Shown in pieces: positions 2,720 through 12,850 of a stretch of 26,851 bases of DNA (position 1 is its first letter; every line of letters begins with the position of its first letter). The stretch is from the IMG/VR virus record IMGVR_UViG_3300030380_003285, positions 9,527 to 36,377 of that record. One strand, 5' to 3'. This DNA is from a virus. A program made the position numbers and the translations under genes. The notes under the pieces are model-generated. The model saw only the letters and a program-made list of their open reading frames with translations. It was not told the DNA's origin and ran no database searches.

Positions 2720-3805
2720 ATGGCAAACACACAAAGAAATTTTGTATTAGGGCGAATGAATAAAAGCCTTGACGAAAGGCTGCTACCTAACGGCGAATAT
2801 GTAGATGCGTTAAATTTAAGATTAGGGTCAACAGAGGAATCTGAAGTAGGTTCGGTAGAAAACGCAAAAGGAAATACACAACTTTCAGAATTATATTTTA
2901 TTGATCCTGTAACTCTTACTAATACTCCATTAAGCTCAGAAGCTAGAACAATTGGTGTTTATGAAGACGGAGCAAATGAAACTTTGTATTGGTTTGTGCA
3001 TGATTCAAACTTTCCAATAGGTGACACAGGCAAGATCGATATGATAGTCTCTTTAAATGTGTTAACAGGATTTTTAAAATATCATGTCATAAGCATTGAC
3101 GATGGCTCTGGTATAAACACTACATTAAATTTTAACCCACAGTTTTTAATTACTGGCACCAATAAGGTTGGTGATTTACTTTTTTTTACAGATTTTTTAA
3201 ATCCACCTAGAGTTATAAACGTAAAAAATTCATACAGTGAGCCGATTGTTTCAACTTTAACTAGCGGAACAACAACAGCGTTTGCATTTACAGCAGGCTC
3301 TGTAACATTAGGAGGGTTTATAAGTGTAGGATTTCATCAAGGCACCGTGTTAGGTTGTCCCGTTGCCGTAAACGCTATAGGAGCGGGTGCTGCTCCCACA
3401 ACAACTCAAATTGATTTACCAGGGACGGGTTGTTACGCAGGATCAGTAACTTCATTTGGCGCGACAGGCCCAGTAGTTGGTATACCTCCTACAACAAAAG
3501 GTTTTGGGATTCAAGGCGCAAATACGGCATCAGGATTTGCGTTAACACAATTTATTACTAATAGTGACGGGAGTGCAACTTTTGGACTTATCATGTCTAG
3601 CGGCGGGGGCAATCCAGGCACTGGAAAGATGAAGGGTGATATTACAGGAAGTGATGGTTCAAGCGGAACTTATGTAGCTAGATATGCCCCGACCGCACAA
3701 TATGTTGATGAAAGTAACGCCTCTCAGAACCCAGAGTCTGTAGGAAAGCTGAAATTAACAGGCATCACATTAATAGATGGTGTAACATATACAATAACAA
3801 TATAA
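2720..3805 (+). CDS. N-terminal part of a crAss-like tail stabilization/muzzle protein, split gene
   Basis: Residues 1-170 carry the hallmark start of a large tail protein of crAss-like and marine Bacteroidota phages: a GRMNKSLDERLLPNGEY segment (11-27), LNLRLGSTEESEVGSVEN (31-48), LYWFVHD (89-95) and LLFFTDFLNPPRVINV (153-168). From about residue 176 the sequence changes to a Gly/Thr/Ser/Ala-rich beta-type stretch with two cysteines, unlike that family, and the frame stops at 361 residues. The next gene begins one base later and appears to carry the rest of the family sequence (DQFSAESILVIKKPP). In relatives I remember, these two parts are continuous. The protein would form part of the distal tail. 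The split could be real, with the halves assembling after translation, or could reflect a one-base indel at 3798-3805. Confidence 0.65.
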   Translation: MANTQRNFVLGRMNKSLDERLLPNGEYVDALNLRLGSTEESEVGSVENAKGNTQLSELYFIDPVTLTNTPLSSEARTIGVYEDGANETLYWFVHDSNFPIGDTGKIDMIVSLNVLTGFLKYHVISIDDGSGINTTLNFNPQFLITGTNKVGDLLFFTDFLNPPRVINVKNSYSEPIVSTLTSGTTTAFAFTAGSVTLGGFISVGFHQGTVLGCPVAVNAIGAGAAPTTTQIDLPGTGCYAGSVTSFGATGPVVGIPPTTKGFGIQGANTASGFALTQFITNSDGSATFGLIMSSGGGNPGTGKMKGDITGSDGSSGTYVARYAPTAQYVDESNASQNPESVGKLKLTGITLIDGVTYTITI

Positions 3806-3806
3806 T

Positions 3807-6800
3807 ATGTCTTACATAGATCAGTTTAGCGCAGAAAGTATTTTGGTAATTAAAAAGCCGCCCACTTCTGCGCCTTCTATTGTAACCTCAACTGTTGCCG
3901 ACGGCACAGTATTTTTAGAAGACAGGTTTATTTGTTTTGCATATCGCTATGAGTATCAAAATGGAGAGTTTTCAGCAACGTCACAGTTTAGTGCGCCCGC
4001 ATTTCAAGCAGGGGTATATAGGTTTAGTGAGTCGAGTTTTCTTAATGAGGGGATGCTAAACACAGCAAACGTAGTCCAAGTTACATTTGATACTGGTGGA
4101 CCCTTAGTTGTTGCAATACAATTATTGTATAAGGACATGAGCGACCCTACAATAAAAATTATAGAGACCATCAATAAAGCTGAGCAAGGGTTAGGAGATA
4201 ACAACTCTTTTACATTTACCTTTGACGACCAAAAAATATTTACAGTATTGCCTGAGTTTGAAATACTAAGGCTTTATGACAATGTACCTTTAAAAGCACA
4301 AGCACAGACTTTGATGGGAAACCGCTTAGTCTATGGTAATTATTTTGAGGGTTATAATTTAAAAGACAGACAAAATAACGCAATAAATTTTACATATAAT
4401 TTAACGTTATCGTCTTCTGAAGTAAATCAAACAGGTTTAGTAGAAACTATAGGTGATGGATATTATACTTATGGCCAAACAGCGACCAAAACAAATTCTA
4501 TATTTTTTATAGATTTAAGTAGCTTACCTCTACGAGCAGGTTCTACAATATCATGGACAGTTAACTTTACTCATTTAAGTTTTTACACTTCTGCGGGATC
4601 GGCACCTACAGCACTTACGCCTGTTACTGAAATAGGGTTTTCATATACTTTAATCAAAGACTATGCTACTGTTTATGATTTAGCTACTGATTCACATTTT
4701 CAAGATAGTATAGGTACATCTAGCAATGTACAAACTGTTGGCAATGCATGTAATGGTTTTACTTTTAGTGATGTATTTAACTGTTCAATACCATCAACAC
4801 TAGGGGCTTTTGCTAAAACTGAAAGTGGTATAACTGCAGCAACTCAAGGTTTTGCTATACAATCAGTTCCTAGCGGACCAAATGATACTAGAATTGGTCT
4901 ACAACTATTGGCAATGAAATGGGTTGATGGAGTAAATGTAACTTATGAATATTATCAAGTTTTAAGCGCTGAGTCTTTTTTAAGGACGACAAATAATAAT
5001 TTTAGCTTACACAGTAATAGAGACTATGAGATTGGTATTGTATATATGGATGATTTCAATCGTTCCTCTACAGCTTTAGTTGGGCCTTTAAACACCACTC
5101 ACGTTCCTTGTCAGAACTCAGTTTTTTTAAATGGTATTACAGTAAACATACCAGGTGGCCAAGCAGGCGGAGCTCCTGCTCAACATGCTCCATATTGGGC
5201 AACAAGATATAAGTTTTGTATTAAGTCTAGTAAGTCTACATACGAGACAATTTACGTGTCAAGTTTTGTTAAAGAAGACAATACAGCACCAGTTTATTTT
5301 TTACTTGAAGGAGAGAATGCAAACAAAGTAGAAGAGGGTGACCGTCTAATAGTTAAAAAAGATTCCTCAGGAGCTTTAAGAAACTGTGCTACAGCGGTGG
5401 TTTTAGAAAAGCAGGCTCAATTAAAAGGGTTTATTGAATTTACAGATCCTTTAAATCCATCAGGTCCCAAGTTACAAGCGCCTCCTGGAACTTATATGAA
5501 AATGATACCAACTAATTTTGCGGTATCTTCAGTAACAAATCCTATTATTACTTACGGTAACATAAGCGGACCTAATGTAAAAAACGACCACTACCCAAAA
5601 GTTTTTTATCCCGTTACTATACCTAATCCAGCAGGTTCAGGAGCCACTGCGAATATATCTTATGATATACCAGAGAATAGTTCTGTCAAAATAAAAATTA
5701 AATCAACAAGACCAGGGGGAAAATCATCGGCCCCATGTGAAAATTTAGTTTGGTCATATGAGCAAGATATAATTGCTAGTGCAACTTTTGCAAACTTTAA
5801 AGAGTTTTTTGATGGAGAGGGATTAGGAGTTTTAACTTCAGGAGCTATACAAAAAAACTCTCTGTTTCAGTTAGGTAATCCTGCTGAAGAGCTGTCTTTT
5901 GATAATGGCACCAACATTCAGTATAACAACTCAACATTGCAAGTCGCTCGTGACCCTGTAGATGGAGATATATCTCAAGGTGTTCAATCATTCTTTTTTA
6001 GATTTATTGAAAACACTAATACTGGTGAAATATTCTTAGGAGTGAGTGGTGGTAGAGAGTGTCCTGGTAGAGGTGACTCAAGACTAGATGTAGAGATAGA
6101 GGTTATAAGGGCTCAAGCTTCAGTTGTTTTTGAAACCCAGCCTTTAGACGCGCTGCCTGATGTATGGTTTGAAAATGAGAAGTCTTTTGGAGTCGATTCG
6201 CTTGGACAGCATTTGGGAAGTATTCAAAATCAAATTATTGATATTGACAACTCAGGGGTAGTTACAGCTCAAGACGCTATCGTAGAAACAGGATTTACAA
6301 ATTGTATAGCTTTCGGAGACGGTATAGAAAGTTATAAAATTAGGGACTCTATAACAGGAAAGGGTCTAACTTTTGGAAATAGGACCACTACTACATCATC
6401 TCAAATTTATAAAGAAGCACATAGGTTTTCTGATTTAACATACAGTGGTGTGTTTAACGATGAAAGTAACGTAAATAAACTAAATGAATTTAACCTAGGC
6501 TTGGCAAACTTTAGCCCCTTAGAAGATTCATTTGGTCCAATAAGAAAACTTTATTCAAGACGTACCGACATCCTTACTTTACAAGAAGACAGAATATCTT
6601 ATGTTCCTGTCGGAAAGGATCTTTTAACAGATGCAGCTGGAGGGGGAGCACTTACTAGTGTACCTCAAGTTTTAGGTGTTCAGATAGCAAGAGATGAAGA
6701 GTATGGTATAAGTAATAATCCTGAAAGTTTTGCTGTATGGGGATACGATAAATATTTCGTTGATTCAAAACGTGGAGCTGTTATTAGATTAAGAGGAGGT

Positions 6801-8384
6801 TCTAGTGGTCAAGAAGAGCTTTCTGTAATATCTGAAAGAGGCATGAGAGGGTGGTTTAGAGATTTCTTTATAAATTCTTTAGGTACTCAAAAGCTAGGTG
6901 GTTATGACCCTTATACTAATGAGTTTGTGTTAGCGGGTAACTTGCAAAACACTTTCGATTTCAGACTATGTTTAGGGTGTGATGTAGCCGAAAATTTAGT
7001 TCTTGAACCTGGCAAAAGAACCATTTATTGTGTTGATGTAGGTCAAGATGTAGGACAAGTTACTGTTAGTTACATAATACCAGATGCTTCAGACGATAAT
7101 ATTATAACTGAAATAGACACACCTACAGGAGCTGGTTTACAAATAATGGAAACAGAAGCGGGAATATCTCCTATAGTAACTGAAGACACTAACACTGGTG
7201 TAGGATATACTTTTAATGCTTATTATAATGGTGTAAAATATACTAGCGGACTTGTCTTTGTGAGTGGTAGTTTTACCATACCAAAAAACAATGTCAATGA
7301 GTCAGAGGTAACTATTGAAGCCACAACAAATGCTAGTGTTGCAGATAGTGCAGAGGTTACTGTAAGTTGCCCAGAACAAAACTTAATTACCGTTTATAAC
7401 ATAGCCCTAACAAATAACGGTGACGCTCTTAAAACAATCCATAATGAATATAGATGGACCGATAACGTATTAAGTTCACCTCTAGAATCTAACTTAGTTA
7501 CATTTGCAAGCGGTACTAATCCCGTAGTTTCACAGTATTATACTATACAAGGTGCCTTAGGTTCAAATGCAGTACCAGATGAAGGATCTTTAGTGTCTAT
7601 TATAAGCAACAAATTTAGCTCTGATACTTTTGATTTTAATATTACTACTAACAAATTGAGATTTTTACGAAGCGCAACTGTTTACAACAACACAACAGCA
7701 GATATAAACGCATTAGTATCTGCATCAACAGAAGCGACACCTATTGTAACTACAGCAGGGTCTAATTATGCTACATTCACGATGCCAACTATGACGACGG
7801 CAGATAATAATCTTTATTTGATTTGGGATTATAGAACAATAACAGCCATAACTCTTTGTCAAAACACTACAGACTTTGGAGCATTAGCAGAGTTCAACTC
7901 TTGTTGTTCATGCGCACCACCAGCACCCACAACTCCATGTTCTCAAGCTGTTGGATATACAGGAGGTCAGAGTTATCCTGATAGGCGTAATATAGAATTA
8001 GGATCAGGTACTGGAACAGTTACTGTAGAGTTTAGGGGTCAAACAGTACCTGATAGAATGATAGTAAAATTTGATGGAGTTACAGTTATTGATAGTCAAT
8101 ATCATGGTGGACAATCACAAATTCCTAACTTGCATCAAGAATTGTCAGGCACTGACCCTAACACTGGAAGTCCTTATGTAGAGCCCACTTCAGGCAATGC
8201 CTACGCACCAAATGGAACAGCTCCATTGCCGACTGTAGCGAATGGAGGATTCATACAAGGAACGCAAAATGTATATAAAACATTTACGTTTAATAAAAAT
8301 ACAGCCACTACTTCATGTCAAGTAGAGGTATATGGTCCTCTTAGCGGAACAGCATATGATGTTAATGTCTCATGCCCAACATAA
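3807..8384 (+). CDS. Main part of the crAss-like tail stabilization/muzzle protein, 1525 aa
   Basis: This very large, beta-rich protein follows the 361-aa gene after one base. Its first 70 residues (DQFSAESILVIKKPP, then FICFAYRYEYQNGEFSATSQFS) and its centre (CIAFGDGIESYKIRDS, VFNDESNVNKLNEFNLGLANF, DILTLQEDRISYVPVGKDLL, SNNPESFAVWG, RGMRGWFRDFF, QKLGGYDP) match what I recall of the large tail protein of crAss-like and marine Bacteroidota podoviruses. Residues 812-823 form an EF-hand-like loop. Residues 1055-1188 and 1378-1523 are two similar beta-sandwich modules ending in VTVSCP and VNVSCP, probably adhesion or surface modules. CLGC (1055-1058) and CCSC (1366-1369) sit at the module boundaries. 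No signal peptide or membrane segment is seen. It is expected at the tail tip and may contact the host; the exact structural name is uncertain. Confidence 0.7.
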   Translation: MSYIDQFSAESILVIKKPPTSAPSIVTSTVADGTVFLEDRFICFAYRYEYQNGEFSATSQFSAPAFQAGVYRFSESSFLNEGMLNTANVVQVTFDTGGPLVVAIQLLYKDMSDPTIKIIETINKAEQGLGDNNSFTFTFDDQKIFTVLPEFEILRLYDNVPLKAQAQTLMGNRLVYGNYFEGYNLKDRQNNAINFTYNLTLSSSEVNQTGLVETIGDGYYTYGQTATKTNSIFFIDLSSLPLRAGSTISWTVNFTHLSFYTSAGSAPTALTPVTEIGFSYTLIKDYATVYDLATDSHFQDSIGTSSNVQTVGNACNGFTFSDVFNCSIPSTLGAFAKTESGITAATQGFAIQSVPSGPNDTRIGLQLLAMKWVDGVNVTYEYYQVLSAESFLRTTNNNFSLHSNRDYEIGIVYMDDFNRSSTALVGPLNTTHVPCQNSVFLNGITVNIPGGQAGGAPAQHAPYWATRYKFCIKSSKSTYETIYVSSFVKEDNTAPVYFLLEGENANKVEEGDRLIVKKDSSGALRNCATAVVLEKQAQLKGFIEFTDPLNPSGPKLQAPPGTYMKMIPTNFAVSSVTNPIITYGNISGPNVKNDHYPKVFYPVTIPNPAGSGATANISYDIPENSSVKIKIKSTRPGGKSSAPCENLVWSYEQDIIASATFANFKEFFDGEGLGVLTSGAIQKNSLFQLGNPAEELSFDNGTNIQYNNSTLQVARDPVDGDISQGVQSFFFRFIENTNTGEIFLGVSGGRECPGRGDSRLDVEIEVIRAQASVVFETQPLDALPDVWFENEKSFGVDSLGQHLGSIQNQIIDIDNSGVVTAQDAIVETGFTNCIAFGDGIESYKIRDSITGKGLTFGNRTTTTSSQIYKEAHRFSDLTYSGVFNDESNVNKLNEFNLGLANFSPLEDSFGPIRKLYSRRTDILTLQEDRISYVPVGKDLLTDAAGGGALTSVPQVLGVQIARDEEYGISNNPESFAVWGYDKYFVDSKRGAVIRLRGGSSGQEELSVISERGMRGWFRDFFINSLGTQKLGGYDPYTNEFVLAGNLQNTFDFRLCLGCDVAENLVLEPGKRTIYCVDVGQDVGQVTVSYIIPDASDDNIITEIDTPTGAGLQIMETEAGISPIVTEDTNTGVGYTFNAYYNGVKYTSGLVFVSGSFTIPKNNVNESEVTIEATTNASVADSAEVTVSCPEQNLITVYNIALTNNGDALKTIHNEYRWTDNVLSSPLESNLVTFASGTNPVVSQYYTIQGALGSNAVPDEGSLVSIISNKFSSDTFDFNITTNKLRFLRSATVYNNTTADINALVSASTEATPIVTTAGSNYATFTMPTMTTADNNLYLIWDYRTITAITLCQNTTDFGALAEFNSCCSCAPPAPTTPCSQAVGYTGGQSYPDRRNIELGSGTGTVTVEFRGQTVPDRMIVKFDGVTVIDSQYHGGQSQIPNLHQELSGTDPNTGSPYVEPTSGNAYAPNGTAPLPTVANGGFIQGTQNVYKTFTFNKNTATTSCQVEVYGPLSGTAYDVNVSCPT

Positions 8385-8395
8385 AATATTAAAAA

Positions 8396-9721
8396 ATGTC
8401 ACAACTAGCTTTATTTATCGATGCTCCAACTCTTTCAGAGGCAACAGCTGTTTATACTGATGCAGCTTTAACAGTTCTTGCTGTAGACGGATACTATTCA
8501 GATCAAGTTATAACACGACAACAATCGGGAGGGGTTTTGGGATCTTCAATAAATTGTCCTAATTGCTCGGGAAGCACGCCATCACCACCTACGATATATA
8601 GTGTTATACAAAACGTAACTAATAATATAGTGGGGACATTAAATGTTGACTATACTTTATCAGGCACTGGTTATGATGGCAATGACCCCGCAGGTTCTGT
8701 TACACAAACAGGTCAAGAAAATGACCCCTATAGTTTTAATATTGTAGCTTCACCAGTACAAGGAAAACAATTTAGTCCAACCGCTAAGTTTTCTGCAACA
8801 AATCCAGCGGGATCTATACCCGTTGGCGGGACGACAGTAACCAACACATTATCAGGAACTATAGAAATTATCCCTAGTACAGCCGCTACTATTAATTATA
8901 AATTAACAGCTTGTCAAGGTGAAAATGGAAATACACCTGCCTCAGGATACATCAATAGAACTTTTGCCAATAGACCTGCAGACAATCAAAGATTTGTAGC
9001 TACAAACGTAGAGCCTGAAGAGTATTATTACTACGACCCTGCGTCACCGACGGTATCTTTTGTTCCTGCTGCGGACTATTTAGATCAACCTGGAGGACGA
9101 AATTTAGTGTTGAATGAAATTGTTGGTGAAACGGGATGTCCTACGTTTAATGTTATAACAGGAAACATAGTTCAACTAACTAAATGTAGCGATGGCTCTA
9201 CAGACTATTACATGCAAGTGCCGTGGAATACACTATGGGCAACTAATAAAAGAGTTACGCCTGATTTAGGATCAACCATATACACTATGGGTGGTATTTT
9301 ACTTGCTAGTCAATTATCTGGTAAGCAAGAGCTTACAAATGTTTTACCAATTGACGTAAACGGTGTAGTTGAAGGACAACCTGGTTTTTATAAAGAAATA
9401 GTTGGTTGCCCTGCTGAAACTTATTACATATTAAAACCATGTGATCCATCATTACAAACAGGTAATCAATATGGTGGCAAAAGAGTATCTACATTACCTA
9501 CTAATGACCCTCTGTTTAGTGCAGGAGCACAGATAGGTAACTCAGGAAGTGTTTATAGGGGTGATGACGGAGTATGTTATCAGTTAGATGGCAGCACTAC
9601 AACTCCATCTCAATATATAACAAACACAACACCAGCAGTAGAGCCTCTTTTATTTTTAGGAAATGATTGTCAAGTATGTAATCAAATAGGAAGCGGTTCT
9701 AGTTCTAGTTATGTGGTTTAA
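8396..9721 (+). CDS. Tail/adhesin-like protein with CxxC motifs, 441 aa
   Basis: The protein starts MSQLALFIDAPTLSEATAVY. Residues 18-50 (VYTDAALTVLAVDGYYSDQV, then RQQSGGVLG) form a short module that recurs at the start of many tail proteins of marine Bacteroidota phages, as far as I remember. It is followed by CPNC (54-57) and a Ser/Pro-rich linker. The centre is beta-rich with many Thr, Gly and Asn; the end carries CQVC (425-428) and a flexible Gly/Ser tail. There is no enzyme motif. It follows the 1525-aa protein after 11 bases and probably shares its transcript. A role as a tail fibre or tip protein is inferred from position and composition; receptor binding is possible but not shown. 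Confidence 0.6.
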   Translation: MSQLALFIDAPTLSEATAVYTDAALTVLAVDGYYSDQVITRQQSGGVLGSSINCPNCSGSTPSPPTIYSVIQNVTNNIVGTLNVDYTLSGTGYDGNDPAGSVTQTGQENDPYSFNIVASPVQGKQFSPTAKFSATNPAGSIPVGGTTVTNTLSGTIEIIPSTAATINYKLTACQGENGNTPASGYINRTFANRPADNQRFVATNVEPEEYYYYDPASPTVSFVPAADYLDQPGGRNLVLNEIVGETGCPTFNVITGNIVQLTKCSDGSTDYYMQVPWNTLWATNKRVTPDLGSTIYTMGGILLASQLSGKQELTNVLPIDVNGVVEGQPGFYKEIVGCPAETYYILKPCDPSLQTGNQYGGKRVSTLPTNDPLFSAGAQIGNSGSVYRGDDGVCYQLDGSTTTPSQYITNTTPAVEPLLFLGNDCQVCNQIGSGSSSSYVV

Positions 9722-9728
9722 TATTTAT

Positions 9729-9736
9729 TATATTTG
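9729..9736 (+). promoter_or_regulatory. Bacteroidota-type -7 promoter element (TATATTTG)
   Basis: TATATTTG fits TAnnTTTG and lies in the 34-base gap before the glycosyltransferase ATG at 9756. The expected leader is about 15 bases. No clear TTG -33 element is seen 17-23 bases upstream. Confidence 0.5.
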
Positions 9737-9755: not shown

Positions 9756-10979
9756 ATGTATTCTATATTTGTTCAGATAGCTAGCTATCGTGATCCTGAA
9801 TTAGTACCCACTCTACACAATCTATTACACAATGCTAAATACCCTGAACAGCTAACCATATGCGTAGCTCATCAGCATAACGCAGAGGATGAGTGGGATA
9901 ACCTTAATGATTTTAAAAATGATTCAAGGTTTATAATAATAGACATACCTCACACAGAATCTCAAGGAACTTGTTGGGCTCGTCATCAAATACAAAGGCA
10001 CTATACCAATCAAATGTTTACACTACATTTAGATTCACACCACCGGTTTATAAAAGACTGGGACGCTGAGTGTATAGACATGTTTTTTTCTTTGAGAAAG
10101 AAGGGCGTAACAAGGCCACTTATTACTTCTTACTTGCCCTCCTATCTACCTGAGACAGAAAATGAGGACAAGGAAAATATGCCATGGAGCATGGTATTTG
10201 ACAGGTTTACTCCTAAAGGAATGTTGTTTTTTAAGCCACACTATATGGAGGATAATGCGACTGAGCCAATACCAGCTAGGTTTTATTCAGGACATTTTGC
10301 GTTTACCATTGGTGAAATATGTAGAGAAGTCCCTCACGATCCTTATTTATATTTTCACGGTGAAGAAATTAGTATAGCTGTAAGAGCCTATACTTGGGGT
10401 TATGATTTATTTCATCCACATAAGACAATAGCATGGCATGAATACACTAGGCAAGGCAGAGACAAGCATTGGGATGATCACACAGAATGGAGCAAAAGAG
10501 ATGAGTCTTCTCAAAATAGAGTTCGGACATTATTGCAAGTGGACAATCAGCAATGCACATCATGTGCAAAAAAGGCATTGAAAGGATATGACTTTGGACC
10601 TGTGCGTACTTTGGAACAATATGAGAGTTACGCTGGCATACGGTTTAAAAGCAGAACCGTACAGCAGTCTACCTTAGATAATAAACCCCCCGGTACAAAT
10701 CAAGATCCTTATCTTAGTTTATTTAGATATAAGATACAGTTAAATAAAAATCAATTCTTACATGATGACTATTCATTTGTTGCTGTAATATATGAGGATG
10801 AAAATGGAGTACTTATAAACAGGAAAGACTTGCAAGAAAGAGAAGTAAACACTTGGAAATATAAAGACGCTATAGAAATTGACAGTGAGTTTATAGGTAA
10901 GACGCCACACAAATATATTGTATGGCCTTACAGTAAATCAAAGGGATGGGTAAATAGAATAGAATCTATCATATTGTAA
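9756..10979 (+). CDS. GT60-like (Skp1 GlcNAc-transferase type, PF11397) glycosyltransferase, 407 aa
   Basis: Residues 1-250 match the 'GlcNAc' glycosyltransferase family, whose founding members transfer GlcNAc from UDP-GlcNAc to hydroxyproline of Skp1 in Dictyostelium. Visible family marks are IASYRDPEL at 8-16, a metal-binding DxH in LHLDSHHRF (D93, H95) followed by KDWD (100-103), YFHGEEISIAVRAYTWGYDLF (199-219) and WHEYTR (227-232). C267 and C270 form a CxxC in the next segment. Residues 310-407 are a separate beta-rich domain of unknown role. There is no signal peptide, so it would act in the cytoplasm. It sits between tail genes, has its own promoter-like element and precedes a protein with a Thr-Pro repeat, which makes a phage protein a plausible acceptor. 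Host surface sugars are an alternative acceptor. The family call is strong; donor and acceptor are unknown. Confidence 0.85.
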   Translation: MYSIFVQIASYRDPELVPTLHNLLHNAKYPEQLTICVAHQHNAEDEWDNLNDFKNDSRFIIIDIPHTESQGTCWARHQIQRHYTNQMFTLHLDSHHRFIKDWDAECIDMFFSLRKKGVTRPLITSYLPSYLPETENEDKENMPWSMVFDRFTPKGMLFFKPHYMEDNATEPIPARFYSGHFAFTIGEICREVPHDPYLYFHGEEISIAVRAYTWGYDLFHPHKTIAWHEYTRQGRDKHWDDHTEWSKRDESSQNRVRTLLQVDNQQCTSCAKKALKGYDFGPVRTLEQYESYAGIRFKSRTVQQSTLDNKPPGTNQDPYLSLFRYKIQLNKNQFLHDDYSFVAVIYEDENGVLINRKDLQEREVNTWKYKDAIEIDSEFIGKTPHKYIVWPYSKSKGWVNRIESIIL

Positions 10980-11005
10980 GTGCATAAAATAAAATTGTAA
11001 ATTTG
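10974..11005 (+). promoter_or_regulatory. Bacteroidota-type promoter before the Thr-Pro-tailed protein
   Basis: TAAATTTG at 10998-11005 matches the -7 consensus TAnnTTTG. TTG at 10974-10976, at the end of the glycosyltransferase gene, is 21 bases upstream and could serve as the -33 element. The expected leader is about 13 bases before the ATG at 11023. Confidence 0.5.
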
Positions 11006-11022
11006 TATTATAATTAAAAAGC

Positions 11023-11547
11023 ATGAGTTATTTAAGTTGTTCAGCCCAAGTTAGAACTGGTACCACATCACCAATTGTAAACACGTATCAAGGAACCGAT
11101 GGTGTAACCTATGCAATTGCTAATCAAGAGATTATAAATGTGCCCAATAATTTGGTTTTGACTGCTGGACTGACTCCATCAATTCAAAGCATTTGGCTTA
11201 GTGGCCCAGGGTTAGTTGTCGCAACAGGTGCTATTTTAGATTCATTAGGTAATGAGATAGTACGATTTTATCCACAGAGTCTTATCCCCCCTGCCTCAAG
11301 CGTTAGTCCAACCACAGCTTTTTTTCCGCCAAACCCAACATCACCTCTAGTTAGTGGTGAGTATACCATACTAACTTTCTTATTATATATAGAGGACAGT
11401 GAGGGTAGAACAAAAGGCGCGGGTCAAATATGTATAGGAGGCACGGAGATAACCCCTACACCAACGCCTACATTTGTTCCTACTTTAACTCCTACTCCTA
11501 CTCCCATACCCCCAACGCCAACGCCTACAGCTACTCCTATAGTTTAG
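11023..11547 (+). CDS. Unknown, probably virion-associated protein with C-terminal Thr-Pro repeat, 174 aa
   Basis: I do not recognise a family. Residues 1-140 are beta-rich and Ser/Thr/Pro-rich, with a cysteine near each end (LSCSAQ at the start, QICIGG near 137), and look like a compact beta-sandwich. Residues 144-172 are almost purely Thr and Pro with occasional Val, Phe, Leu, Ile and Ala, an extended and unstructured stalk typical of O-glycosylated linkers. There is no signal peptide. It has its own promoter-like element and lies immediately after the glycosyltransferase gene and before another tail-like gene. A decoration or fibre protein with a glycosylatable tail is the simplest reading, and this is inference. 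Confidence 0.55.
   Translation: MSYLSCSAQVRTGTTSPIVNTYQGTDGVTYAIANQEIINVPNNLVLTAGLTPSIQSIWLSGPGLVVATGAILDSLGNEIVRFYPQSLIPPASSVSPTTAFFPPNPTSPLVSGEYTILTFLLYIEDSEGRTKGAGQICIGGTEITPTPTPTFVPTLTPTPTPIPPTPTPTATPIV
11452..11538 (+). repeat. Degenerate hexanucleotide repeat encoding Thr-Pro dipeptides
   Basis: Degenerate tandem units related to CCTACT/CCAACG encode the Thr-Pro tail (residues 144-172) of the 174-aa protein. The pyrimidine- and C-rich strand stands out from the AT-rich surroundings. Such tracts can change length by slippage in multiples of six bases without shifting the frame. Confidence 0.75.
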
Positions 11548-11566
11548 GGCCAAAGTAAAAATATTG

Positions 11567-11574
11567 TATATTTG
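11567..11574 (+). promoter_or_regulatory. Bacteroidota-type -7 promoter element (TATATTTG)
   Basis: TATATTTG, identical to the element at 9729-9736, lies in the 48-base gap before the gene at 11596. The expected leader is about 17 bases. No TTG is seen at the -33 position. Confidence 0.5.
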
Positions 11575-11595: not shown

Positions 11596-12417
11596 TTGGC
11601 ACAAATACCATCATCACCTAACCCTGTCGCTACGCCACAAATGCCTACTGGTGATCTGTATACTCTTACTTATAGCAATAGTGTGCAAGGTTGGCCATCG
11701 TTTTATTCATACAACCCTGATTATATGGTAGGTATGAATAACTACTTTTATACTTTTTCAGGCGGCAATATATACAGACATAACACTAATGAAGCAAGAA
11801 ATAATTTTTATGGTGTACAATATAACTGCTCAATAACAACTGTTATTAATGAAGCGCCCTTAGACAATAAATTATTTAAAACTATAAGCTTAGAATCAGA
11901 TTCACCTTGGAACACTAGCTTAAATACTGACATGAATAACCAAGCGTTTATAAACAACACATGGTTTGAGCTAAAAGAAGGGGCTTATTATGCGGCAGTC
12001 AAAAACACTTCACAAACTCCAGCGACACTCAGTGAGTTTGATCTAAGGTCTGTCAATGGTATAGGTAATACCACAGGCTTTACAATGACAAATCCTAGAG
12101 TCTTCACTTTTACTGTTGCAATCGATTCAATTATAAGTATAGGAGATTATTTGTATTATCTTAATGAGTTCACAAACTCTCCCTCATTAGCGGGTGTAAT
12201 TACAGCCAAAAATGCCACGTCAATTACAGTAGACAGCACAATACCTGGAGCAACTAATCCAACAACAAATACGCCTTTAATGATGGCGTTAAAGAATCTA
12301 ATTGCAGAGTCACATGGAATACTTGGGCACTATTCAATAATGACTTTTGAAAATATAGGACCTGCTAGAGCGGAGCTCTTTGCAGTGCAAGCGCAAGTAA
12401 TGAAAAGTGATCCTTAA
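11596..12417 (+). CDS. Tail protein, conserved in marine Bacteroidota phages, TTG start, 273 aa
   Basis: The N-terminus reads MAQIPSSPNPVATPQMPTGD if translation begins at the TTG at 11596, the first usable start after an in-frame stop at 11578. The next ATG (11641) would remove 15 residues. The TTG is favoured because it lies about 17 bases from the predicted transcription start. Residues 20-110 (YSNSVQGWPSFYSYNPDYMV, GMNNYFYTFSGGNIYRHNTN) strongly resemble a tail-tip protein I remember from several marine Bacteroidota phages and crAss relatives; Tyr, Phe and Asn are abundant and no membrane segment is present. The rest is beta-rich. It is probably a structural component of the distal tail. 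The role is from context and remembered similarity. Confidence 0.65.
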   Translation: MAQIPSSPNPVATPQMPTGDLYTLTYSNSVQGWPSFYSYNPDYMVGMNNYFYTFSGGNIYRHNTNEARNNFYGVQYNCSITTVINEAPLDNKLFKTISLESDSPWNTSLNTDMNNQAFINNTWFELKEGAYYAAVKNTSQTPATLSEFDLRSVNGIGNTTGFTMTNPRVFTFTVAIDSIISIGDYLYYLNEFTNSPSLAGVITAKNATSITVDSTIPGATNPTTNTPLMMALKNLIAESHGILGHYSIMTFENIGPARAELFAVQAQVMKSDP

Positions 12418-12439: not shown

Positions 12440-12850
12440 ATGGAGTTTAATATACGTAAACTAAATTCTACTGACTACGAAGACATACTAGTGAGTTGGT
12501 GGAATGACTGGGGATGGGAGCCTCCGGCAAAAGATTTTTTGCCAGATGACGGTGAAGGTGGTTTAATAGTATTAGATAATAACATCCCTGTATGTGCAGG
12601 GTTTATATATATAACAAATTCAAAAGTAGCCTGGGTGGACTGGATTATATCAAATAAGAATTACGAAAATAAAAAGGCCAAGCACAGAGCTGTCAAATCT
12701 TTAGTTGACTCATTGACTCAAGCGTGCAAGGCAGGAGGAAGTAAATACGCCTATGCCTTAATAAAACATGATGGTTTGATTAATACGTATAAAGAATTAG
12801 GCTATATAAAAGCAGACAATTACTCACAAGAAATGATAAAAGTATTATAA
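12440..12850 (+). CDS. GNAT-like N-acetyltransferase, 136 aa
   Basis: Size and pattern fit the GNAT acetyltransferase fold and a small family often found in marine phage genomes. A Trp-rich segment at 20-27 (WWNDWGWE) is followed by LPDDGEGGLIVLDNNIPVCAG (34-54, beta-2/3), VAWVDWIISNKNY (63-75, beta-4), a helix at 80-98 and a final LIKHDGLINTYKELGY (107-122). The usual Q/RxxGxG/A acetyl-CoA loop after beta-4 is not clear here, where NKKAKHRAVKSLV occurs instead, so activity is not assured. It ends the accessory cassette and is followed after one base by the first internal virion gene, with which it is probably co-transcribed. The substrate is unknown; a host or virion protein, or a small metabolite, is possible. 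Confidence 0.65.
   Translation: MEFNIRKLNSTDYEDILVSWWNDWGWEPPAKDFLPDDGEGGLIVLDNNIPVCAGFIYITNSKVAWVDWIISNKNYENKKAKHRAVKSLVDSLTQACKAGGSKYAYALIKHDGLINTYKELGYIKADNYSQEMIKVL

Follow-up and report, generated by a model that had tools for sequence, protein, structure and literature searches.

A phage gene for a glycosyltransferase lying directly upstream of a gene whose product ends in a run of threonines and prolines raises the question of whether the enzyme modifies its neighbour and, if so, on which residue and in which part of the virion. The original prediction had proposed a tail glycosylation pair, acting on threonine or on hydroxyproline. We analysed the pair in the window (the whole stretch of DNA under study, 26,851 nucleotides of an IMG/VR record of 36,377 bases), with relatives of both proteins drawn from IMG/VR.

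Genomic context of the gene pair

The phage is marine and crAss-like; matches to PF25729, phrog_38031, phrog_24687 and PF11397 identify the window as its late structural region, and both a PF25729 C-terminal domain and a muzzle body gene, which mark crAss-like muzzle loci, are found in it. The features needed below are as follows.

2720..3805, + strand: N-terminal part of the muzzle (MUZ1, 361 aa), fused to the body in relatives that lack the cassette
3807..8384, + strand: muzzle body (MUZ2, 1525 aa); phrog_14478 virion structural protein, 599 bits, and alignment with gp44
8396..9721, + strand: X441, a variable muzzle-site protein with homologs at the equivalent place in most relatives
9729..9736, + strand: TATATTTG, Bacteroidetes-type -7-like element before the glycosyltransferase, kept upstream of most L092-L099 homologs
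9756..10979, + strand: PF11397/GT60-type glycosyltransferase, 407 aa
10032..10040, + strand: codons of the DxH motif (D93-S94-H95), putative metal/nucleotide-sugar site, from its invariance; position computed from the ORF start
10437..10439, + strand: codon of H228 (WHEYTR motif), putative third metal ligand, invariant in 31 homologs
10998..11005, + strand: TAAATTTG, -7-like element before TP174, kept in L092-L099
11023..11547, + strand: TP174, 174 aa, a beta-sandwich head (1-143) with a Thr-Pro tail; N-terminal half of phrog_38031
11449..11544, + strand: Thr-Pro tail of TP174, ITPTPTPTFVPTLTPTPTPIPPTPTPTATPIV, proposed as acceptor from its conservation
11566..11574, + strand: GTATATTTG, -7-like element between TP174 and MUZC, kept in all eight split-gene relatives
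11596..12417, + strand: muzzle C-terminal domain (MUZC273); PF25729, 59.7 bits, and C-terminal half of phrog_38031, 338.9 bits
Upstream of 12440: TATCTTTG, a TAnnTTTG element

The N-terminus of X441 resembles UOF82484 of MW202828, and the L101 homolog of X441 has a Thr-Pro tract of its own. MUZC273 is followed by a small ORF (12440-12850, 136 aa, phrog_17252) that nearly always comes after MUZC, with or without a cassette, and whose counterpart in MW202828 is annotated as an N-terminal acetyltransferase subunit. Some relatives carry a small ankyrin-repeat ORF between enzyme and TP174 (L094:9610-9963 and a 117-aa ORF in L012). Each gene from the enzyme onward has its own TAnnTTTG element, which we take to be a Bacteroidetes-type -7 box, and these elements are mostly kept in eight relatives. 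Their function is presumably of the promoter type, and their conservation makes a Bacteroidota host likely.

A glycosyltransferase resembling mucin-type initiators

Enzyme and neighbour are encoded precisely at the coordinates given originally. The motifs from which the enzyme had been recognised are all present (SYRDPE, D93-S-H95, FHGEE at residues 200-204 and WHEYTR at 227-232), and D93, S94, H95, E203, E204, H228, E229 and Y230 are invariant across 31 phage homologs. The ORF scores 254.5 bits (E 2.6e-75; cut-off 21) with the Pfam profile PF11397, 'Glycosyltransferase (GlcNAc)', and 544 bits with phrog_24687, 'glycosyltransferase'. By analogy with the polypeptide GalNAc-transferases (ppGalNAc-Ts), we take H228 to be the third metal ligand. 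The protein has no obvious signal peptide or membrane segment, and comprises a GT-A fold and a C-terminal beta domain (about residues 319-405).

Sequence searches returned no PDB relatives for either the enzyme or the muzzle domain, and among annotated phages tblastn matched the enzyme in three jumbo phages only. The 39 best PDB matches to the AlphaFold model of the enzyme (pLDDT 92.3, pTM 0.88) are polypeptide GalNAc-transferases (E down to 1.3e-10, TM about 0.5), including GalNAc-T2, T4, T12, T1 and T. gondii T3, and the fold is predicted to be a GT-A fold of the polypeptide HexNAc-transferase type. The ppGalNAc-Ts are mucin-type initiators that act on Thr in Thr/Pro-rich peptides, and, as modelled, the phage enzyme looks like such an initiator.

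TP174 and its Thr-Pro tail

Pro-rich sequence occurs nowhere in the window but in the C-terminal ~32 residues of TP174, where 11 of 24 residues are Pro; ITPTPTPTFVPTLTPTPTPIPPTPTP is a peptide from this tract in the native register. TP174 matches positions 5-166 of the phrog_38031 profile with 94.6 bits, and tblastn against annotated phages gave no match. In its AlphaFold model (pLDDT 86, and >90 over most of residues 1-143) the tail is extended and has no secondary structure. Foldseek returned no significant match for the head (best E 1.6e-3, TM <0.45); we therefore term the head a beta-sandwich only.

Ten TP174 homologs share the same residue at 27 of the 30 tail positions and at 53 of the 140 body positions, with mean identities of 97% and 67%, respectively. 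The body has a pN/pS ratio of 0.315 and the tail one of 0.035, pS being 0.70 in both, with synonymous sites saturated. Recent gene conversion and repeat slippage were rejected as sources of this invariance, because the codon choice of each tail Thr and Pro varies freely among homologs and synonymous differences are the same in tail and body. Judged from these substitutions, the tail is under selection at the level of protein sequence, beyond what chance would give.

A single insertion point in the muzzle

In phi-crAss001, gp44 forms a tail-tip assembly whose length varies by insertion (PMC10172136). Profile comparison places MUZ2 on gp44 residues 1049-1202 (weak when taken alone, E 0.0019) and MUZC on 1199-1283 (E 4e-5), in collinear order; since the MUZ2 alignment extends up to residue ~1202 and that of MUZC273 begins at 1199, so that they meet at about residue 1200, the enzyme, X441 and TP174 are inserted at one point of the muzzle. 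According to a record note, MS/MS identified the MUZC homolog of Cellulophaga phage phi18:3 as a virion protein; this phage has no cassette.

In many relatives (L013, L014, L015, L016, L017, L019, L020, L022, L026, L101, L109), TP174 and MUZC273 make up a single chain of about 450-465 aa, in which the Thr-Pro tract serves as linker. It is this fusion to the crAss muzzle C-terminal domain that leads us to place TP174 at the tail tip, and it bears out the location in the tail proposed originally, when the next ORF (11596-12417) had not been recognised as that domain. The two are separate genes in the window's own clade, and the presence of TP174 in the virion is there something that we infer. 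MUZC273 has a TTG start and a short Pro-rich N-terminus, which is a remnant of the linker found in fused relatives. We also considered whether the stop codon separating TP174 from MUZC might be artefactual, and discarded this because both the split and the -7-like element in the gap are kept in eight relatives.

Co-occurrence of enzyme and stalk in crAss-like phages

When TP174 alone was used as bait, the enzyme was found upstream of it in 12 of 12 loci. For a broader census, loci were collected by means of the muzzle C-terminal domain and the site between body and MUZC was inspected, a Pro-rich stalk being scored at >=9 Pro in 24 aa (the maximum in stalk-less loci is 6). Pooled over all baits, 125 muzzle loci distinct by MUZC sequence comprise 64 with both a sugar enzyme and a stalk, 61 with neither and none discordant; for muzzle-only baits the corresponding figures are 30, 58 and 0. 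However, on the MUZC tree the enzyme/stalk trait changes only three times, and branches with good support require just one of these changes (sign test p = 1). The two-by-two table, perfect as it is, therefore amounts to nearly one contrast rather than 125, and we have downgraded it as independent evidence. The class of enzyme turns over 13 times on the same tree while the stalk is retained. The sole crAss-like enzyme bearer with a weak Pro-rich stretch is L173 (Thr fraction 0.07).

Additional sugar-related genes occur at some of these loci. A protein of about 765 aa with tandem PF04488 domains (GT32-like) follows the enzyme in L101 (7649-9946), L015, L018, L271 and L272, and perhaps extends the first sugar. 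By analogy with phage XacN1, the L101 gene had been considered as a carbamoyltransferase, an assignment that was discarded on its tandem PF04488 match in Pfam.

The enzyme outside crAss-like phages

PF11397 genes occur in phage contigs on at least 589 stretches. In 14 of 54 clusters of non-crAss enzymes (90% identity), the enzyme gene is immediately preceded by a same-strand, Thr-Pro-rich ORF; placing the enzyme at random gives 2.0 on average (20,000 draws, null maximum 9, p<=5e-5). These upstream ORFs belong to several partly unrelated families, and the result agrees with the pairing seen in crAss-like phages as an independent replicate of it. Nevertheless, 41 of 67 other enzyme-bearing phage loci have no Thr-Pro-rich ORF on the stretch read, and the enzyme family is thus not restricted to such substrates. 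The expectation that related phages would carry both genes consequently holds within the crAss-like group, where only the stalk of L173 is weak, and fails for a majority of the other loci. In the jumbo phages XacN1 (L006:7992-13305) and RAS14 (L007), a homolog of the enzyme is followed by a large NodU-type carbamoyltransferase gene, with an HtrL/YibB-like gene nearby; no Thr-Pro protein was seen at these two enzyme loci.

Bacterial PF11397 genes are widespread, and a Thr-Pro-rich ORF lies near the gene in 11 of 77 loci from bacterial genomes, two of the 11 (L312 and L321) being crAss-like contigs. These two cassette-bearing muzzle contigs are binned in unrelated MAGs, assigned to Planctomycetaceae and Gammaproteobacteria, respectively. 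In three further loci of the 11, from Pseudoduganella genomes (L377, L382, L389), a PF11397 gene lies directly downstream of the gene for a large Thr-Pro-rich protein, a possible cellular version of the pairing.

Prolyl 4-hydroxylases in sister phages and the identity of the acceptor

At the muzzle insertion site of many other phages we find a protein of about 400 aa whose first half is a prolyl 4-hydroxylase (e.g. L172:7325-8497, L176:7328-8584, L180:4351-5628). It matches PF13640 with 53-69 bits, and its best PDB relative is a procollagen-proline dioxygenase (E 4e-26), the Chlamydomonas prolyl 4-hydroxylase also being matched. The second half is itself 2OG-oxygenase-like, with a conserved HxD and a distal H within residues 300-390. 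Its companions at the site are GT32-like, O-FucT-like, carbamoyltransferase or PF11397-type genes (the last in 15 loci), and the stalks are of PVPVPV, PAPAPA and PTPPTPP types. Of 79 loci retrieved with the hydroxylase as bait, 66 have crAss-like markers, and 65 of these 66 have a Pro-rich stalk at most three genes away. In the literature available to us we found no account of a prolyl hydroxylase in crAss-like phages or other phage genomes, nor of PF11397 in connection with phages.

No prolyl hydroxylase had been seen in the window originally; a PF13640 search that did detect the positive control, L172, found none in the 36 kb of its record or in 13 records that carry the enzyme only (up to 58.6 kb; all of these records are incomplete). 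The median Thr fraction of stalks is 0.30 where the enzyme occurs without hydroxylase and 0.16 where there is hydroxylase only, values that are clustered by descent; L271 and L272, which are enzyme-only inside a hydroxylase clade, have stalk Thr fractions of 0.31-0.33 against 0.17 in their sister L210. GT60 includes both the Skp1 hydroxyproline GlcNAc-transferase and Trypanosoma cruzi enzymes that make GlcNAc-alpha-Thr on mucins (PMC9472816, PMC8724618), and the latter show that the family permits a Thr acceptor without any hydroxylase. Given these precedents, the ppGalNAc-T-like model and the lack of PF13640, Thr is the likelier acceptor in the window's phage, while the hydroxyproline route fits the sister phages that bear a prolyl 4-hydroxylase at the muzzle site. 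Consequently, of the 'Skp1-type' label first given to the enzyme, we retain the membership of PF11397/GT60 and regard the implication of hydroxyproline as the less likely. The original observation is thus confirmed and its interpretation supported in part, in that the pairing and the place in the tail stand.

Proposed mechanism and alternative explanations

We consider it fairly probable that the enzyme belongs to an exchangeable cassette for stalk glycosylation and that, working in the cytoplasm, it O-glycosylates Thr residues of the TP174 stalk. Late in infection, a cytosolic mucin-type polypeptide alpha-HexNAc transferase (PF11397/GT60) would draw on a UDP-sugar of the host, with UDP-GlcNAc the likeliest donor, and attach the sugar to tail threonines while virions are assembled or beforehand. 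TP174 would be an accessory protein of the tail tip (muzzle), the product would be a glycosylated stalk on virions, and the tail's unchanging register would dictate where the sugars are placed. Enzyme and TP174 would then be one version of a cassette exchanged between muzzle body and C-terminal domain, other versions of which combine prolyl 4-hydroxylase and other glycosyltransferases with Pro-rich stalks, probably via hydroxyproline. The benefit may be a stiff, protease-resistant and hydrophilic stalk, or a shield or adhesin at the tail tip. The broader generalisation, which we judge to have about an even chance of being correct, is that crAss-like phages of Bacteroidota have one fixed muzzle site for an exchangeable cassette, holding either a Thr-Pro stalk and a GT60 transferase or a Pro-rich stalk and prolyl 4-hydroxylase with GT60-like, O-FucT-like, GT32-like or carbamoyltransferase genes, so that both mucin-type and hydroxyproline-type O-glycosylation would occur on tail tips.

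Several alternative hypotheses may explain the same observations. The tail could be an unmodified polyproline-II spacer or docking peptide, with the enzyme modifying another virion protein or host glycans. Unglycosylated Thr/Pro linkers also exist, the tract does link two domains in relatives, a fixed register would suit a docking peptide equally, and some phages carry the enzyme next to NodU- and YibB-like genes with no Thr-Pro-rich ORF in the vicinity. Yet linkers should be useful in enzyme-less muzzles too, and all 61 of these are without a stalk; moreover, Thr-Pro-rich ORFs adjoin the enzyme in unrelated phages, and the stalk is kept through the 13 changes of enzyme class, and we regard this explanation as unlikely. 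Glycosylation of hydroxyproline as in Skp1, by way of a host or unseen phage prolyl hydroxylase, would follow the founding GT60 enzyme and the 15 sister loci in which a muzzle-site hydroxylase accompanies a PF11397-type enzyme; against the Thr precedents within GT60, and with PF13640 absent from the window's own and the 13 enzyme-only records (incomplete as they are), it seems to us improbable for this phage.

The two remaining explanations take the enzyme away from the virion. It is very improbable that the enzyme alters the host envelope (e.g. for superinfection exclusion) and that its position in the muzzle is incidental, since its place among the muzzle genes is constant in the crAss-like group, its co-occurrence with the stalk is strict and it has no membrane anchor, even though modification of host surface glycans by glycosyltransferases of phages is documented (PMC12619734) and PF11397 genes are common in bacteria. 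Many phage glycosyltransferases act on DNA (PMC12619734), and the XacN1 homolog lies downstream of a DNA polymerase gene and beside a carbamoyltransferase gene; modification of phage DNA is nonetheless scarcely credible for an enzyme encoded among structural genes, whose fold matches polypeptide transferases and for which no PF00303 thymidylate synthase-type (hydroxymethyl-base) gene was found on its own and six related records, these being fragments.

Relation to known systems and implications

In carrying PF11397 and a DxH motif, the enzyme of the proposed Thr-glycosylating cassette is like the GT60 alpha-GlcNAc transferases (Dictyostelium Gnt1/Gnt2 and Trypanosoma cruzi TcOGNT); it is cytosolic like Gnt1, and in T. 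cruzi the acceptors are Thr-rich mucins (PMC9472816, PMC8724618). It differs from these enzymes in being phage-encoded, in its extra C-terminal beta domain and in its putative tail-tip stalk substrate. The ppGalNAc-Ts (GT27) provide the closest solved structures to the model and act on Thr in Thr/Pro-rich peptides, as we propose for the phage enzyme, whereas the phage enzyme has no ricin-type lectin domain, shows about 12% identity and belongs to another sequence family.

We know of no Thr-Pro stalk or hydroxylase in the virion glycosylation of mycobacteriophages. In those phages, glycans are found at the C-termini of virion proteins (Freeman et al. 2023, as cited in PMC12619734), and the substrates are different, namely capsid and tail-tube subunits. 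Hydroxyproline glycosylation (Skp1 PhyA/Gnt1, and the extensins of plants and algae) has a putative parallel in the sister phages, where a single locus unites prolyl 4-hydroxylase and glycosyltransferases with Pro-rich stalks; the window's cassette, unlike these systems, has no hydroxylase. With phi-crAss001 gp44 (PMC10172136) the window shares the aligned segments of MUZ2 and MUZC, but its muzzle is split at gp44 residue ~1200 and has ~470 extra residues in MUZ2 as well as X441, enzyme and TP174. Phage virion glycosylation is known from mycobacteriophages; we found, in the literature available to us, no description of a crAss muzzle where a mucin-type transferase accompanies a Thr-Pro stalk, or of hydroxylase versions of this arrangement.

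In these phages the stalks at the tail tip probably bear a coat of sugars, much like that on the mucins and cell-wall proteins of animals, protists and plants. If this is true, phages build mucin-like and, in the sisters, probably extensin-like tail-tip stalks with enzymes of their own, a bacterial-virus counterpart of a kind of protein glycosylation that has been described mostly in eukaryotes. This would also account for what phage prolyl 4-hydroxylases and part of the PF11397 genes on those phage stretches do. Enzyme and peptide make a compact pair for Thr-Pro O-glycosylation, and, with the insertion site in the muzzle fixed, glycosylation of crAss-like tail tips is open to direct test.
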